This document shows, piece by piece, positions 54,625-64,000 of a stretch of 64,000 nucleotides of DNA. Each line of letters starts with the position of its first letter. Positions within the stretch are counted from its first letter, which is position 1. Source of the stretch: an uncultured Chitinophaga sp. Lineage in GTDB: Bacteria > Bacteroidota > Bacteroidia > Cytophagales > Cyclobacteriaceae. The DNA lies in assembly GCA_902168205.1 (NCBI GenBank), contig CABHOK010000011.1, forward strand, positions 310,001 to 374,000, written 5' to 3'. The notes under the pieces are model-generated. The model ran no database searches. It had not been told where the DNA came from and saw only the letters and a program-made list of their open reading frames with translations. Position numbers and translations under genes: made by a program.

Positions 54625-55833
54625 ATGAGTAAACCATTACAAAAAAAAGTAGCCAACTATACCATTGCAAAAGAGGCACGGTTAAAAGGCATATACCCCT
54701 ATTTCAGACCGATTGAATCAGCCCAAAGTACGGAAGTTATCATCGAAGGGAAGCGGGTATTGATGTTTGGCTCAAACTCATATTTAGGGCTTACGAACCA
54801 TCCGGTTATTAAAGAAGCTGCTCAAAAAGCAATCAGCAAATATGGAACAGGTTGTGCAGGCTCCAGATTTTTGAACGGTACGCTTGATATACACATTGAG
54901 CTTGAAAAAAGAATTGCTGCCTTTACCGGTAAAGAAGATGCCCTGATCTTCAGCACAGGCTTCCAGGTTAACCTGGGTGTAATGGCATCACTCACCGGCC
55001 GTAATGATTATTTGATATTAGACGAATACGATCATGCTTCCATCTACGATGGTACACGCCTTTCTTTCTCGCGTGTTATCAAATATGCTCACAACGATAT
55101 GCAGGATCTGCAAAAGAAGTTGAGTGTACTGCCGGAAGAATCGATCAAACTTATAGTGGTGGATGGTATATTCAGTATGGAAGGTGATATAGCCAAGCTG
55201 CCTGAATTGATTACCATAGCTGACCAGTTTGGTGCAACCATCGTTGTTGATGATGCGCATAGCCTGGGGGTTATCGGACAGAAAGGAGCGGGTACAGCTT
55301 CTCATTTCGACCTGACTGAAAAAGTAGATATTATCACCGGTACCTTCAGTAAATCACTGGCATCCCTGGGTGGTTTCGTAGCAGCTGATGCCGACACAAT
55401 TGAATTCCTGAAACACCATGCACGTTCCCTGATATTCAGTGCCAGCATGACTCCGTCATCTGCTGCGAGTGTGCTTGCTGCTTTGGATCTGATTGAAACC
55501 GAGCCGGAGCACATGGATAACCTGTGGAAGAATACACATTATGCCATGCACCTGCTTCGTGAAGAAGGCCTGGATATAGGTGCTACCGAGAGTCCAATCA
55601 TTCCGATATACGTACGGGATAACAATAAAACGTTCATGGTTACAAGCATGCTTCAGCAAGAAGGCGTATTTGTAAATCCTGTCGTATCTCCTGCTGTACC
55701 ACCGGATTCATCACTACTTCGCTTTTCGCTCATGGCAACGCACACCTTCGGCCAGATTGAAGAGGCAATCGAAAAAATCTCGAAAGTCTTCAAGCGTGTG
55801 GGTATCGCCAATATAAAAGAGCCCATTAAATGA
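54625..55833 (+). CDS. spt: Serine palmitoyltransferase
   Basis: 402 residues of the alpha-oxoamine synthase family: condenses serine with a long-chain acyl-CoA to 3-ketosphinganine, the first step of sphingolipid synthesis, using pyridoxal phosphate. The cofactor lysine is Lys243 ([13 protein letters not shown]), with Asp209 and His212 in VDDAHSLG and the ring-stacking His137 in [11 protein letters not shown]. The segment [25 protein letters not shown] at 74-94 separates it from BioF and from 2-amino-3-ketobutyrate ligase, and the neighbouring ceramide genes support the SPT call. Its stop overlaps the next ATG by four bases. Confidence 0.9.
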
Positions 55834-56951
55834 AACGTGTTCTCCCTGCCAGCAGCAAAAAAGACATAAAGGCTTTTATCGATTTTCAGCATGACCTTTA
55901 TGCTGATGATCCCTGCTACGTTCCGGAATTATTCATCGCACAGCGCGACCTGCTTACACCGGGCAAGCATCCCTTTCACGAACATTCTGAAATACAGCTT
56001 TTCCTCGCCTATAACAATGATAAGATTGTAGGAAGGATCGCTGCTATCCTCAACAATAATCATAACAAATTCAACCAGGTTACAGACGGCTTTTTCGGAT
56101 TCTTTGATTGCATCAACGATGGCGAGATTGCTTCGATGTTACTGGATAAAGCAACGGAATGGCTACGCGCCAAAGGTGCTACCAGTCTCATTGGTCCGGT
56201 AAACTTTTCAACCAATGAAACCTGTGGAATGCTCGTTTCAGGTTTTGATACACCGCCCTTTGTTATGATGCCGCATAACAAAGAATACTATAACGCGTTA
56301 CTTGAACAGCTTGACTTCAGGAAGCGTGTAGACCTGCTCGCATACTACTTCGGTAAAGATGGCTACAATGACAAAGCTGTTAAACTTCAGGATGTACTCA
56401 CGGAGCGCTTGAAGAACAGGGGCATCACCATTCGTCCGGTAAACAAGAAGAAGTTCCAGGAGGAAGTTGATAAGATCAGAGAGGTATATAATTCTGCGTG
56501 GGACAAGAACCTCGGTTTTGTTCCGATGACGGAGAAGGAATTCAACTATATGGCCAAAGATCTGAACCTCGTTCTCGATACAGACTTTTGCCTCGTAGCC
56601 GAGAAAGATGGTAAACATATAGGTTTTGCTTTGGCTTTACCGGATATAAACCAGGCATTAATTAAAGTAAAGCGCGGAAGACTGTTGCCATTCGGTTTAT
56701 TCAAACTGCTCTTCGGCTTGAAGAAGGTAAACGGCATTCGCATTATTACACTCGGTGTAGTAGAAGAGTATAGAAAGGCAGGTATAGAAGCGTGTTTTTA
56801 TGCTTCTATCATCAATGCATACCGGAAGAAAAAGTACGAGCATGCGGAAGCATCGTGGGTACTGGAGCATAACGAACTGATGAATAAAGCCATTCAGCAA
56901 ATTAACGGTATACCGCACAAGCGATACAGGATTTTTGAAAAGGCTATATGA
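55830..56951 (+). CDS. bcerS: GNAT-fold acyltransferase, candidate bacterial ceramide synthase
   Basis: 373 residues, no signal peptide. The fold is GNAT-like in two halves: [11 protein letters not shown] and [24 protein letters not shown] in the first, [15 protein letters not shown] and [23 protein letters not shown] in the second. The length, the [15 protein letters not shown] motif and the position between spt and an NAD-epimerase gene match the ceramide synthase defined in Caulobacter (bCerS), which N-acylates the sphingoid base. Overlaps of four bases on both sides indicate coupled translation with spt and cerR. I have not aligned it to the reference, so another acyltransferase role is possible. 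Confidence 0.75.
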
Positions 56952-57934
56952 AAGAGCGTGTATTGATAACCGGGGCCAGCGGATTTGTAGGGTTTCACCT
57001 CATCGAAGCGGCTCTTCAAAAAGGTCTTGAGGTATATGCAGCGGTGCGTCCATCGAGCCAGGTGGAACACCTGAAGCATTTGCCGATACACTATACCACG
57101 CTTGATTTTTCAAACAGGAATGCACTCGAAGCAAACCTGCACGAAAATAAATACAGCTATATTATTCACGCAGCAGGTGCTATAAAAGCAGCAGACTATG
57201 CGGAGTATGTAAAAGTAAATGCAGAGTATACCCGTAACCTGGCACATGCAGCACAGGAGTCTGCTATAAGACTGAAGAAATTTGTCTTCATCAGCAGTCT
57301 GGCGTCCATGGGGCCGTCCGGAACGGGTAAACCTATAACAGAGCAAGATCAGGCAAACCCGCTTACAAGTTATGGCAAGAGTAAGCTGGTAGCCGAAACA
57401 TACCTGTCTGAACTGAAAGATCTGCCATTAATATCATTGCGTCCAACGGCAGTATATGGGCCACGCGAACGTGATATATTTATTATGATCAACGTCATTA
57501 ACAAAGGGTTTGAACCTTATATAGGACGTATACCCCAGAAGTTGAGCTTCATCTACGTGAAAGATCTTGCATCGGTATCGATACAGGCTTTGAATAGTGC
57601 TGTCAATAACAAAAGCTATATCGTGGCCGATGGTTTGAGCTACGACCGTTACCAGCTTGGTGAGATCGTGAAAACGATTCTGAAAAAGAATACGATCAAA
57701 CTACACTTGCCACTAGTGGTAGCAAAAGCTATAGCTGTATTGCAGGAAGGTGCCGGCTCCATCAGTGGCAAATCGCCTATACTGAGTCGCGAAAAGCTGG
57801 CCGAGTTAATTGCGCTTGACTGGTCATGCAATATTGAGCCGCTTCGAAACGACTTAGGCTTTGAGCCAAAGTATACGTTGGAAACCGGCATGGCAGAAAC
57901 TTTGCAATGGTATAAAGAAAATAAATGGCTGTAA
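56948..57934 (+). CDS. cerR: NAD-dependent epimerase/dehydratase family, candidate ceramide reductase
   Basis: 328 residues of the extended short-chain dehydrogenase family. The nucleotide loop is GASGFVG (9-15) and the catalytic YxxxK is Tyr142-Lys146 (SYGKSK), with the Ser of ISSLASMG before it. The sequence is close in kind to sugar epimerases, but the operon context after spt and bcerS fits CerR, which in Caulobacter reduces 3-keto-ceramide or 3-ketosphinganine in ceramide synthesis. A four-base overlap links it to the upstream gene, and inositol-3-phosphate synthase follows after 49 bases. Confidence 0.78.
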   Translation: MKERVLITGASGFVGFHLIEAALQKGLEVYAAVRPSSQVEHLKHLPIHYTTLDFSNRNALEANLHENKYSYIIHAAGAIKAADYAEYVKVNAEYTRNLAHAAQESAIRLKKFVFISSLASMGPSGTGKPITEQDQANPLTSYGKSKLVAETYLSELKDLPLISLRPTAVYGPRERDIFIMINVINKGFEPYIGRIPQKLSFIYVKDLASVSIQALNSAVNNKSYIVADGLSYDRYQLGEIVKTILKKNTIKLHLPLVVAKAIAVLQEGAGSISGKSPILSREKLAELIALDWSCNIEPLRNDLGFEPKYTLETGMAETLQWYKENKWL

Positions 57935-63472: not shown

Positions 63473-63478
63473 GACACG

Positions 63479-64000
63479 ATGAATTTTTTGATCAGTCTGT
63501 TTTTTGTCGGTGCCATGTCGTTCACACCGGCAGCACCGGAAGAAGCATGCATCTGCAAGGGACAGGAAAAATTTCCGACTCCTCCAGCCGATCAGAATAC
63601 TCTCTTCTATATACAGCGCACGCCCAATACCAATACAATCATTTACGCGCTTAACTTCGAAAAGAAGGATCAGCTTGATGCCGACAACCCGGTACATCCA
63701 TACTGGATACGCTACCAGGAAGAAGGACAAAAAGAAGAGTTGTCATTCATACAACGCAATTACGCGTACGGATTAAAAACCGAAGATCTTGGAAACGGTA
63801 AATATGAATTGCGCTTTGTATCCTATAAGAAACTTCCGTTTTACCTCACCAAGTCTTCTCGCGATAACCAGTATCACATTCATGCCGTGATCAACAAAAA
63901 GAAAATCGAAGTGTCGCGCGTTTTTTTACAGATAGAAGGCGGATCTTTCTGGTTGCCCAATGTAGTTTGTGCAGAAGTAAAAGGTGTAGATCCTGATACA
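63479..64000 (+). CDS. DUF4833-family exported protein (partial, runs off the right edge)
   Basis: 174 codons are visible and the frame is open at the edge. An ATG six bases after the previous stop begins MNFLISLFFVGAMSFTPAAP, a weak signal peptide. The mature part has a Cys pair (EACICKG), then NTLFYIQRTPNTNTIIYALNF, VHPYWIRYQEEGQKEELSF and YGLKTEDLGNGKYELRFVSY, the DUF4833 pattern of a single strand-rich domain. The family has no known activity. It belongs to the same transcript as the lipid genes by spacing, so it may be an accessory of inositol-lipid metabolism. Confidence 0.8.
   Translation, partial: MNFLISLFFVGAMSFTPAAPEEACICKGQEKFPTPPADQNTLFYIQRTPNTNTIIYALNFEKKDQLDADNPVHPYWIRYQEEGQKEELSFIQRNYAYGLKTEDLGNGKYELRFVSYKKLPFYLTKSSRDNQYHIHAVINKKKIEVSRVFLQIEGGSFWLPNVVCAEVKGVDPDT

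Follow-up and report, generated by a model that had tools for sequence, protein, structure and literature searches.

Introduction

In Bacteroides thetaiotaomicron, the genes BT_1526 to BT_1522 encode, in this order, a myo-inositol-phosphate synthase (MIPS), a PgpA-like phosphatase, a GtrA protein, a phosphatidylinositol-phosphate synthase (PIPS) and an inositol phosphoceramide (IPC) synthase (PMC9246714, PMC8791184). Knockouts showed that enzymes of this cluster are needed for phosphatidylinositol (PI) and IPC, and the phosphoinositol-to-ceramide step is performed by BT_1522 (PMC9246714, PMC8791184). Loss of BT1524, the GtrA gene, lowered IPC and raised PI (PMC8791184), which fits the expectation for a PI flippase; contrary to that report, TLC was unchanged after loss of BT_1524 in another (PMC9246714). 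A carboxypeptidase-regulatory-like protein, BT_1527, lies nearby, and an alternative inositol cluster, made up of NTP transferase, CDP-alcohol transferase and HAD genes, has been described for B. vulgatus and Prevotella (PMC9246714).

Clusters of serine palmitoyltransferase (SPT), bacterial ceramide synthase (bCerS, or CerS) and ceramide reductase (CerR) genes are found in alphaproteobacteria. In Caulobacter CerR is periplasmic and its loss leads to oxidised ceramide (PMC11087976), and for B. thetaiotaomicron a 3-ketosphinganine reductase is cited (PMC10865984). One paper reports that Bacteroidota do not cluster SPT, CerS and CerR. According to a 2024 paper, it has yet to be established which proteins flip and transport bacterial sphingolipids (PMC11087976). 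Our literature search, confined to papers outside subscription, found no description of a combined ceramide and inositol operon.

Results

Organization of the gene run

The window analysed here is a stretch of 64,000 nucleotides from an uncultured Chitinophaga sp. (contig CABHOK010000011.1). An initial annotation had described nine consecutive plus-strand genes running from position 54625 to the window end. All nine ORFs (9/9) are present, joined by three 4-base overlaps, one 1-base overlap and gaps of 49, 10, 3 and 6 bases, and their Pfam domains agree with the names given to them. That description was accurate but incomplete, since the window edge cuts the run: the host contig adds two co-directional genes, eleven in all, with a 4-base overlap between DUF4833 and the hydroxylase gene and an 11-base overlap between the latter and the IPC synthase gene. 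The gene after the IPC synthase lies on the opposite strand. The members of the run are:

54625..55833, +, serine palmitoyltransferase (SPT); NCBIfam NF047600, 740.8 bits
55830..56951, +, GNAT-type candidate bacterial ceramide synthase (bCerS); Pfam Acetyltransf_1, 30.8 bits, cut-off 20.7
56948..57934, +, SDR candidate ceramide reductase (CerR); Pfam Epimerase
57984..59309, +, myo-inositol-phosphate synthase (MIPS, BT_1526 type); Pfam PF07994/PF01658
59309..59758, +, PgpA-like phosphatase, candidate phosphatidylinositol-phosphate phosphatase (BT_1525 position); Pfam PF04608; GTG start
59769..60137, +, GtrA-family membrane protein, candidate PI flippase (BT_1524 position); Pfam PF04138
60134..62716, +, DUF5686, CarboxypepD_reg domain and predicted outer-membrane beta-barrel; Pfam
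62720..63472, +, CDP-alcohol phosphatidyltransferase, phosphatidylinositol-phosphate synthase (PIPS, BT_1523 type); NCBIfam NF052561
63479..64000 (cut; whole gene L002:9480-10034, would end at 64033), +, DUF4833; Pfam PF16117
Beyond the window (L002:10031-10657, would be 64030-64656), +, fatty-acid hydroxylase, candidate ceramide 2-hydroxylase; Pfam PF04116
Beyond the window (L002:10647-11594, would be 64646-65593), +, PAP2_3 inositol phosphoceramide (IPC) synthase, BT_1522/AUR1-like; Pfam PF14378; TTG start

We propose, with a probability of about 0.82, that these genes constitute an eleven-gene operon for IPC, complete from primary metabolites to the lipid, whose members would be co-transcribed. 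That one gene run unites a ceramide set with an inositol set, as first annotated, is borne out by families and gene order, and the gene content supports the inositol-bearing sphingolipid that had been suggested as the product.

Conservation of the locus and exchange of the inositol genes

The loci compared are the best 80 of at least 455 confirmed relatives, and 67 of them were long enough for gene counts; as they were picked by CerS similarity, the counts describe relatives of this operon and not all Bacteroidota. Gene presence was scored by tblastn thresholds, so that diverged copies read as absent, and absences of SPT, CerS and IPC synthase hinge on E-value limits. All eleven genes occur in the same order in 29 of the 67 loci, and SPT, CerS and CerR are adjacent in 59, in contrast to the published statement on Bacteroidota. 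Its recurrence with unchanged gene order, in many genomes from several families, shows that the arrangement is not due to chance. Cultured carriers include Chryseolinea serpens DSM 24574 (L028), Pontibacter lucknowensis (L035) and Chitinophaga silvisoli (L054). An upstream thiolase was rejected as an operon member, being present in 1 of the 80 loci (200-bit threshold).

In Dyadobacter (for instance D. crusticola, L058) and Runella the same chassis carries a different inositol cassette between DUF5686 and DUF4833, composed of NTP-transferase, ATP-grasp-like, CDP-alcohol, LPG-TM, HAD and PfkB genes (cassette 2, as opposed to the MIPS-to-IPC synthase set, cassette 1). By the gene types described in PMC9246714 it resembles the alternative cluster of B. 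vulgatus and Prevotella. It is absent from the window, and a search of the host genome with its CDP-alcohol enzyme gave no hit at E 1e-20. Thirteen of the 67 loci carry neither cassette, which indicates that the ceramide and inositol halves are separable; three of these (L046, L047, L079) show CerS alone. Within the host family the distribution is patchy, since the order sample includes 10 further members with neither a close CerS nor the IPC synthase.

DUF5686 and DUF4833

No paper in the literature searched mentions DUF5686 or DUF4833 by name. With the AlphaFold model of DUF5686 (pLDDT 79.5), all 50 of the 50 Foldseek matches listed were BamA/TamA/Sam50-type proteins, and the prediction for the protein is a BamA/TamA-like barrel, a similarity of fold only. 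A true Omp85 was rejected for want of sequence kinship (with an Omp85 profile that was shallow, at 12 rows, hhalign gave a probability of 0.1), and PF01103 was missing among the Pfam families matched by 43 DUF5686 members. DUF4833 is probably an exported all-beta protein; its N-terminus is hydrophobic, and its model, built on the relative in locus L026 because the window copy is cut, is confident (pLDDT 90.7). This model had no PDB match at E 0.001, and the sequence search gave none at E 1.

Both DUFs were found in 42 of 45 cassette-1 loci, in 8 of 8 cassette-2 loci and in 1 of the 14 others. They are not tied to the inositol half only, as Dyadobacter and Runella keep both without MIPS, PIPS or IPC synthase, nor to the ceramide half only, as five genomes (G102, G135, G175, G203 and G204) have them along with inositol genes, while SPT was not detected at E 1e-120. 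This limit is strict; the SPT of G022 barely passes it. In 4 of 148 genomes a natural fusion joins DUF4833 to PIPS; DUF4833 is also enriched alongside SPT or IPC synthase (9/12 vs 7/136; Fisher 3e-8, a test that ignores kinship).

It is possible, albeit doubtful, that the two proteins are mere passengers with unrelated envelope functions, co-transcribed by happenstance. At the thresholds used, DUF4833 does occur in 7 of 136 genomes without SPT or IPC synthase, in the order sample as well as in the class sample (the two samples overlap in the host genome and a few more), and of the 13 loci without a cassette, 12 have neither DUF, implying that the ceramide genes can do without them. The fusion, the enrichment and the contrast between cassette-bearing loci and the rest argue against this explanation, and we regard DUF5686 and DUF4833 as candidate envelope proteins that handle the lipid once it is made.

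The ceramide half

The SPT exceeds the cut-off of the Bacteroidota SPT family NF047600 (640 bits), and its PLP lysine is invariant in all 75 aligned rows; in this and the other catalytic-residue alignments the window row is counted in, and rows with short or broken frames were left out. The GNAT protein is 32-37% identical to homologues from Roseomonas, Sphingomonas and E. coli (YghO) whose genes cluster with SPT-like ones. Against solved structures it gave six marginal, unrelated cellulase matches only (E 0.35-0.4). The alphaproteobacterial clusters (Caulobacter, as published, and Roseomonas, locus L146) contain the same SPT, GNAT and epimerase types; compared with them, the window run is devoid of acyl carrier protein, acyl-AMP ligase and LptF/G genes. 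In contrast to the periplasmic CerR of Caulobacter, the SDR showed no hydrophobic segment by simple hydropathy.

Alternatively, the GNAT and SDR proteins might not be ceramide synthase and reductase, either because reduction precedes acylation, through a 3-ketosphinganine reductase of the BT_0972 type such as that cited for B. thetaiotaomicron (PMC10865984), or because other enzymes act. The low identity of the SDR to the Roseomonas ceramide-cluster epimerase (25-27%) leaves room for this, as does the GNAT tree, which places the window protein in a Bacteroidota clade and does not settle the deep branching relative to the proteobacterial clade. However, the SDR is the top match of the host genome to that epimerase (65.3 bits; runner-up, 29.5), and the SPT-GNAT-SDR linkage is tight and also present in G110, whose GNAT is 30% identical. 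We thus consider the alternative unlikely, and retain CerS and CerR as the candidate functions.

The inositol half and the joining enzyme

A single PF01658 match, the MIPS, is present in the host genome. The PIPS scores above the curated cut-off of NF052561 (PIPSynBT1523; 413.7 vs 350 bits) and keeps the residues D..DG..AR...G...D...D in 38 of 38 aligned rows. The PgpA-like phosphatase and GtrA hold the same positions in BT-like clusters (L140-L142), and the BT_1526-1522 order together with the NF052561 score supports the kinship with Bacteroides inositol-lipid genes proposed earlier. Relative to BT_1522-1526, the run adds the ceramide genes in front, has DUF5686, DUF4833 and the SCS7-like hydroxylase interleaved, and is without a BT_1521-type LPG_synthase gene.

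The annotation had found no gene joining phosphoinositol to ceramide, and had looked for this activity in an unassigned member or in the CDP-alcohol enzyme. Neither idea is supported, the latter enzyme being a BT_1523-type PI-phosphate synthase by NF052561. The missing transferase was an edge effect, because the run continues with an AUR1-like PAP2_3 gene that begins 646 bases past the window end. Its product matches fungal AUR1 (E 1e-16), keeps the catalytic H-H-D in 46 of 46 aligned rows and scores below the curated cut-off of NF052609 (phosphoinositol dihydroceramide synthase; 331.7 vs 480 bits, E 4.5e-99), with 43-44% identity to two relatives above that cut-off. The order MIPS-phosphatase-GtrA-PIPS-IPC synthase is shared by G107 and G032, with an IPC synthase that exceeds it, and by G110. 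Based on motif, AUR1 match and context, the PAP2_3 protein likely works like an IPC synthase.

An IPC-synthase-like gene also occurs in the five genomes without SPT at E 1e-120, where the acceptor could differ. It is nevertheless very unlikely that ceramide and PI serve separate ends here (a glycerolipid role for PI, a different headgroup on ceramide) and that the PAP2_3 protein acts as a phosphatase or on a different acceptor, as those five genomes and the score under the equivalog cut-off could suggest, given that its gene belongs to the same run as SPT-CerS-CerR and the ceramide-type hydroxylase, that it matches AUR1 with an invariant H-H-D and that BT_1522 carries out this step in Bacteroides (PMC9246714, PMC8791184).

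Discussion

For this organism we infer every reaction, the flippase role of GtrA and the roles of both DUF proteins. SPT would form 3-ketosphinganine, the GNAT protein would N-acylate it and the SDR would reduce the product to dihydroceramide, with the SCS7-like enzyme 2-hydroxylating the amide-linked fatty acid. In parallel, MIPS would supply inositol phosphate, which the CDP-alcohol enzyme would combine with CDP-diacylglycerol to PI-phosphate, and the PgpA-like enzyme would strip the extra phosphate. GtrA might then flip PI across the inner membrane to its outer leaflet, where the AUR1-like enzyme would transfer phosphoinositol from PI to ceramide, and DUF4833, in the periplasm, and DUF5686, in the outer membrane, may aid the handling or delivery of the lipid.

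New here are the cassette swap in Dyadobacter and Runella, the DUF4833-PIPS fusion and the barrel prediction for DUF5686. Tentatively, the locus might be an exchangeable phosphosphingolipid factory, in which a fixed chassis, SPT-CerS-CerR at one end and DUF5686 plus DUF4833 for envelope delivery, takes either inositol cassette; DUF4833 would work together with the PI-making enzyme on the periplasmic side, and in the outer membrane DUF5686 would insert or flip the sphingolipid, which would be the missing transport step. One chassis with two cassettes would lend independent support to the still unproven alternative inositol route, and GtrA, DUF4833 and DUF5686 are testable candidates for sphingolipid flippase or transport steps.

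The operon would bring together, in one compact set, the genes for a lipid made by fungi, plants and gut Bacteroides, and its relatives suggest that the gene capacity for IPC extends to many cultured genera beyond the gut groups. Papers on host chemistry contained no lipid structures linkable to this operon; judging from its genes, the product is most likely a 2-hydroxylated IPC. The hydroxylase matches yeast SCS7 (E 4e-35) and its catalytic histidines are kept in 23 of 23 aligned rows; in contrast to SCS7, the bacterial protein consists of the FA_hydroxylase domain alone and aligns with no more than the C-terminal part of the yeast enzyme.

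Extent of the gene run and the joining enzyme

The initial annotation described nine genes for ceramide and inositol-lipid synthesis together with their joints, and reading the ORFs of the window (G000:C11:310001-374000 in the 7.3 Mb host genome) bore this out. The DUF4833 gene ends at 64033, past the window edge, as read in the same contig (stretch L002; window position = L002 position + 53999), and is followed there by two further co-directional genes, one for a fatty-acid hydroxylase, overlapping the DUF4833 gene by 4 bases, and one for a PAP2_3 protein, starting at TTG and overlapping the hydroxylase gene by 11 bases. 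The next gene lies on the opposite strand. Upstream, a 446-base gap separates a thiolase gene from the first gene (SPT), and thiolase adjoins the set in only 1 of 80 relatives. A short way downstream of the operon is a gene for an outer membrane protein of the LpxR type (L002:13073-14053, window-equivalent 67072-68052, minus strand).

The sole NCBIfam match of the PAP2_3 protein at E 0.001 was phosphoinositol dihydroceramide synthase (E 4.5e-99; 331.7 bits, under the cut-off of 480), and its PDB sequence matches at E 1 were to AUR1 only. Its residues H235, H275 and D279 were kept in 46/46 aligned rows. These family and AUR1 matches, together with the intact catalytic residues, therefore indicate that a likely enzyme for joining phosphoinositol to ceramide, for which the initial annotation saw no obvious gene, is present and was lost to the window edge. 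SPT passed the Bacteroidota SPT model (740.8, cut-off 640), the CDP-alcohol enzyme (PIPS) passed the BT_1523 model (413.7, cut-off 350), and the hydroxylase matched yeast SCS7, a ceramide fatty-acid hydroxylase, at E 4e-35. Conservation extended to the PIPS catalytic residues (38/38 rows), the hydroxylase histidines (23/23), the SPT lysine (75/75) and the Y/K of the SDR protein, the candidate ceramide reductase CerR (69/69); all these counts include the window row and omit rows with short or broken frames. We conclude that the gene run is a complete, widely shared candidate set for inositol phosphoceramide (IPC), its chemistry being read from the genes, and that its lipid product is probably 2-hydroxylated.

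A new form of the Bacteroides system

In B. thetaiotaomicron, BT_1526-1522 encode MIPS, a PgpA-like phosphatidylinositol (PI)-phosphate phosphatase, GtrA, PI-phosphate synthase and IPC synthase, whose knockouts have been studied (PMC9246714, PMC8791184). The window operon has the same five gene types in the same order but, unlike BT_1526-1522, with DUF5686, DUF4833 and hydroxylase genes interleaved. It is a new form of a known system and offers fresh hints on two unnamed families; a literature search reaching mainly open-access papers found none that describes the combined operon. The plain five-gene order occurred in genomes G107, G032 and G110. The IPC synthases of the first two exceed the cut-off of the phosphoinositol dihydroceramide synthase model (NF052609); the ceramide triad of G110 lies apart from its inositol genes.

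PI is produced in the cytoplasm, and enzymes of the AUR1 type have active sites that point away from that compartment. Because of this orientation, the lowered IPC and raised PI upon loss of BT1524 (GtrA), as reported in PMC8791184, would fit GtrA acting as a PI flippase; PMC9246714 reports an unchanged TLC upon the same loss.

Distribution among relatives

Relatives were collected by scanning genome contigs with six rows of CerS (the GNAT protein, a candidate ceramide synthase), keeping the best 80 of at least 455 confirmed loci and scoring gene presence at fixed tblastn thresholds. The nearest named CerS relatives point to a Cytophagales-type Bacteroidota as the host. Among these best 80, SPT was present in 77, CerR in 69, DUF5686 in 60, MIPS and DUF4833 in 54 each, PIPS in 50, hydroxylase in 49, IPC synthase in 47, the PgpA-like phosphatase in 46 and GtrA in 45. 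Thirteen loci were too short to judge; among the remaining 67, SPT and CerR were both next to CerS in 59, and 45 had three or more of the five inositol genes. All eleven genes stood in window order in 29/67 of these CerS-picked loci, and in none of the 67 did the detected plus-strand genes depart from that order.

Carriers include Chryseolinea, Pontibacter, Rufibacter, Chitinophaga, Taibaiella, Pedobacter and Mucilaginibacter. The host family is patchy, as 10 other members in the order-level sample (148 genomes, host included) lacked both a close CerS and IPC synthase; one of them, G288, has SPT. The operon type also appeared in metagenome bins whose titles name Williamsia (Actinomycetota) and Bacteroides (L043, L026, L050), which group with Cytophagales/Chitinophagales rows, and these titles are probably wrong. 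Five loci (L130, L136, L150, L151, L153) combine inositol and IPC-synthase genes with both DUF families in genomes without SPT at E 1e-120; the acceptor lipid may differ there, or the SPT may be too diverged for this threshold. No full MIPS was found beside the cluster in L151 and L153.

The ceramide genes

According to a 2024 paper citing earlier work (PMC11334938), SPT, bCerS and CerR are not near one another in sphingolipid-making Bacteroidota; contrary to this statement, the three window genes overlap. SPT (threshold E 1e-120) was found in 9/148 genomes of the order sample, with a CerS-type gene adjoining or one gene off in 9/9 (28-29% identical in G288 and G179), and in 11/149 of the class-level sample, with CerS adjoining in 6/11 using the window CerS as query.

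Homologues of the window CerS in Roseomonas, Sphingomonas and E. coli (YghO), at 32-37% identity, are clustered with SPT-like genes that are in turn 36-40% identical to the window SPT. In a 44-row tree it fell inside a 30-row Bacteroidota clade (support 100/99), separate from the proteobacterial and Bacteroidaceae-type clades, the order among clades being unsettled, with long-branch warnings. The window SDR was the host genome's best match to the Roseomonas epimerase (65.3 bits vs 29.5 for the next), at low identity.

The host also encodes another full-length protein of this GNAT type (G000:C4:127165-128277, in L021), 26.9% identical to the window CerS; no other window proteins matched within 19 kb around it. 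The E. coli yghO region (L195, a plasmid record of strain PN43, 844-8623; also L148) contains genes for a fatty acyl-AMP ligase, an epimerase, an acyl carrier protein and an SPT-like aminotransferase with 39% identity to the window SPT, along with additional lptF/lptG copies. This region looks like a sphingolipid cluster of the alphaproteobacterial type; YghO and the Roseomonas CerS-like protein share 44% identity.

Exchange of the inositol cassette

Seven Spirosomataceae loci from Dyadobacter and Runella (L058, L090, L092, L096, L098, L101, L105), as well as L154 and L155, keep SPT-CerS-CerR-DUF5686 and DUF4833. Between DUF5686 and DUF4833, all nine carry a second cassette: NTP transferase, an ATP-grasp-like gene (without a Pfam match, and named by reading), a CDP-alcohol transferase that resembles PIPS only distantly, LPG_synthase_TM, HAD and PfkB. 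No MIPS was found within the Spirosomataceae loci. In G073 the first five of these genes follow MIPS directly in the same order, an arrangement that by gene type fits the 'alternative' inositol cluster described in PMC9246714. The second-cassette CDP-alcohol enzyme occurred in 3/149 class genomes, all three with SPT. Arachidicoccus (L062) has MIPS within its ceramide run, with HAD, CDP-alcohol and ATP-grasp-like genes convergent to it.

DUF4833 and DUF5686

Both families occurred together in 42/45 loci with the MIPS-to-IPC-synthase cassette, 8/8 with the second cassette and 1/14 others. Ignoring kinship, DUF4833 was present in 9/12 order genomes with SPT or IPC synthase vs 7/136 others, and in 6/13 vs 7/136 class genomes. 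A hydrophobic N-terminal stretch (13-residue mean of at least 1.6) was found in 44/52 DUF4833 rows; the window copy has one too, although a 19-residue hydropathy scan did not flag it. By tblastn, DUF4833 is fused behind PI-phosphate synthase in four genomes (G204, G175, G240, G203), and Pfam confirmed both domains in the two scanned (G204, G175). A hydrophobic stretch separates the fused domains, in three by the hydropathy cut-off and in the fourth by eye, and would place DUF4833 in the periplasm.

The DUF4833 model was confident (pLDDT 90.7), with no PDB match at E 0.001. For DUF5686 (pLDDT 79.5, pTM 0.68), the 50 listed of 114 Foldseek matches at E 0.001 were BamA/TamA/Sam50-type proteins (best E 7e-9), with TM about 0.6 by bare BamA barrel length, only 0.25-0.30 by query length, and rmsd mostly 7-10 A. 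Sequence-profile comparison, including one with an Omp85 profile of 12 rows, revealed no kinship, so a role of the two families in lipid delivery stands as a hypothesis drawn from gene context and fold.

Searches with twelve window proteins matched DUF4833 and the SCS7-like hydroxylase alone in L159 (G185; 7910-9088), and DUF4833 and GtrA alone in L128 (G065) and L129 (G101); in none of these three genomes did an SPT reach the threshold.
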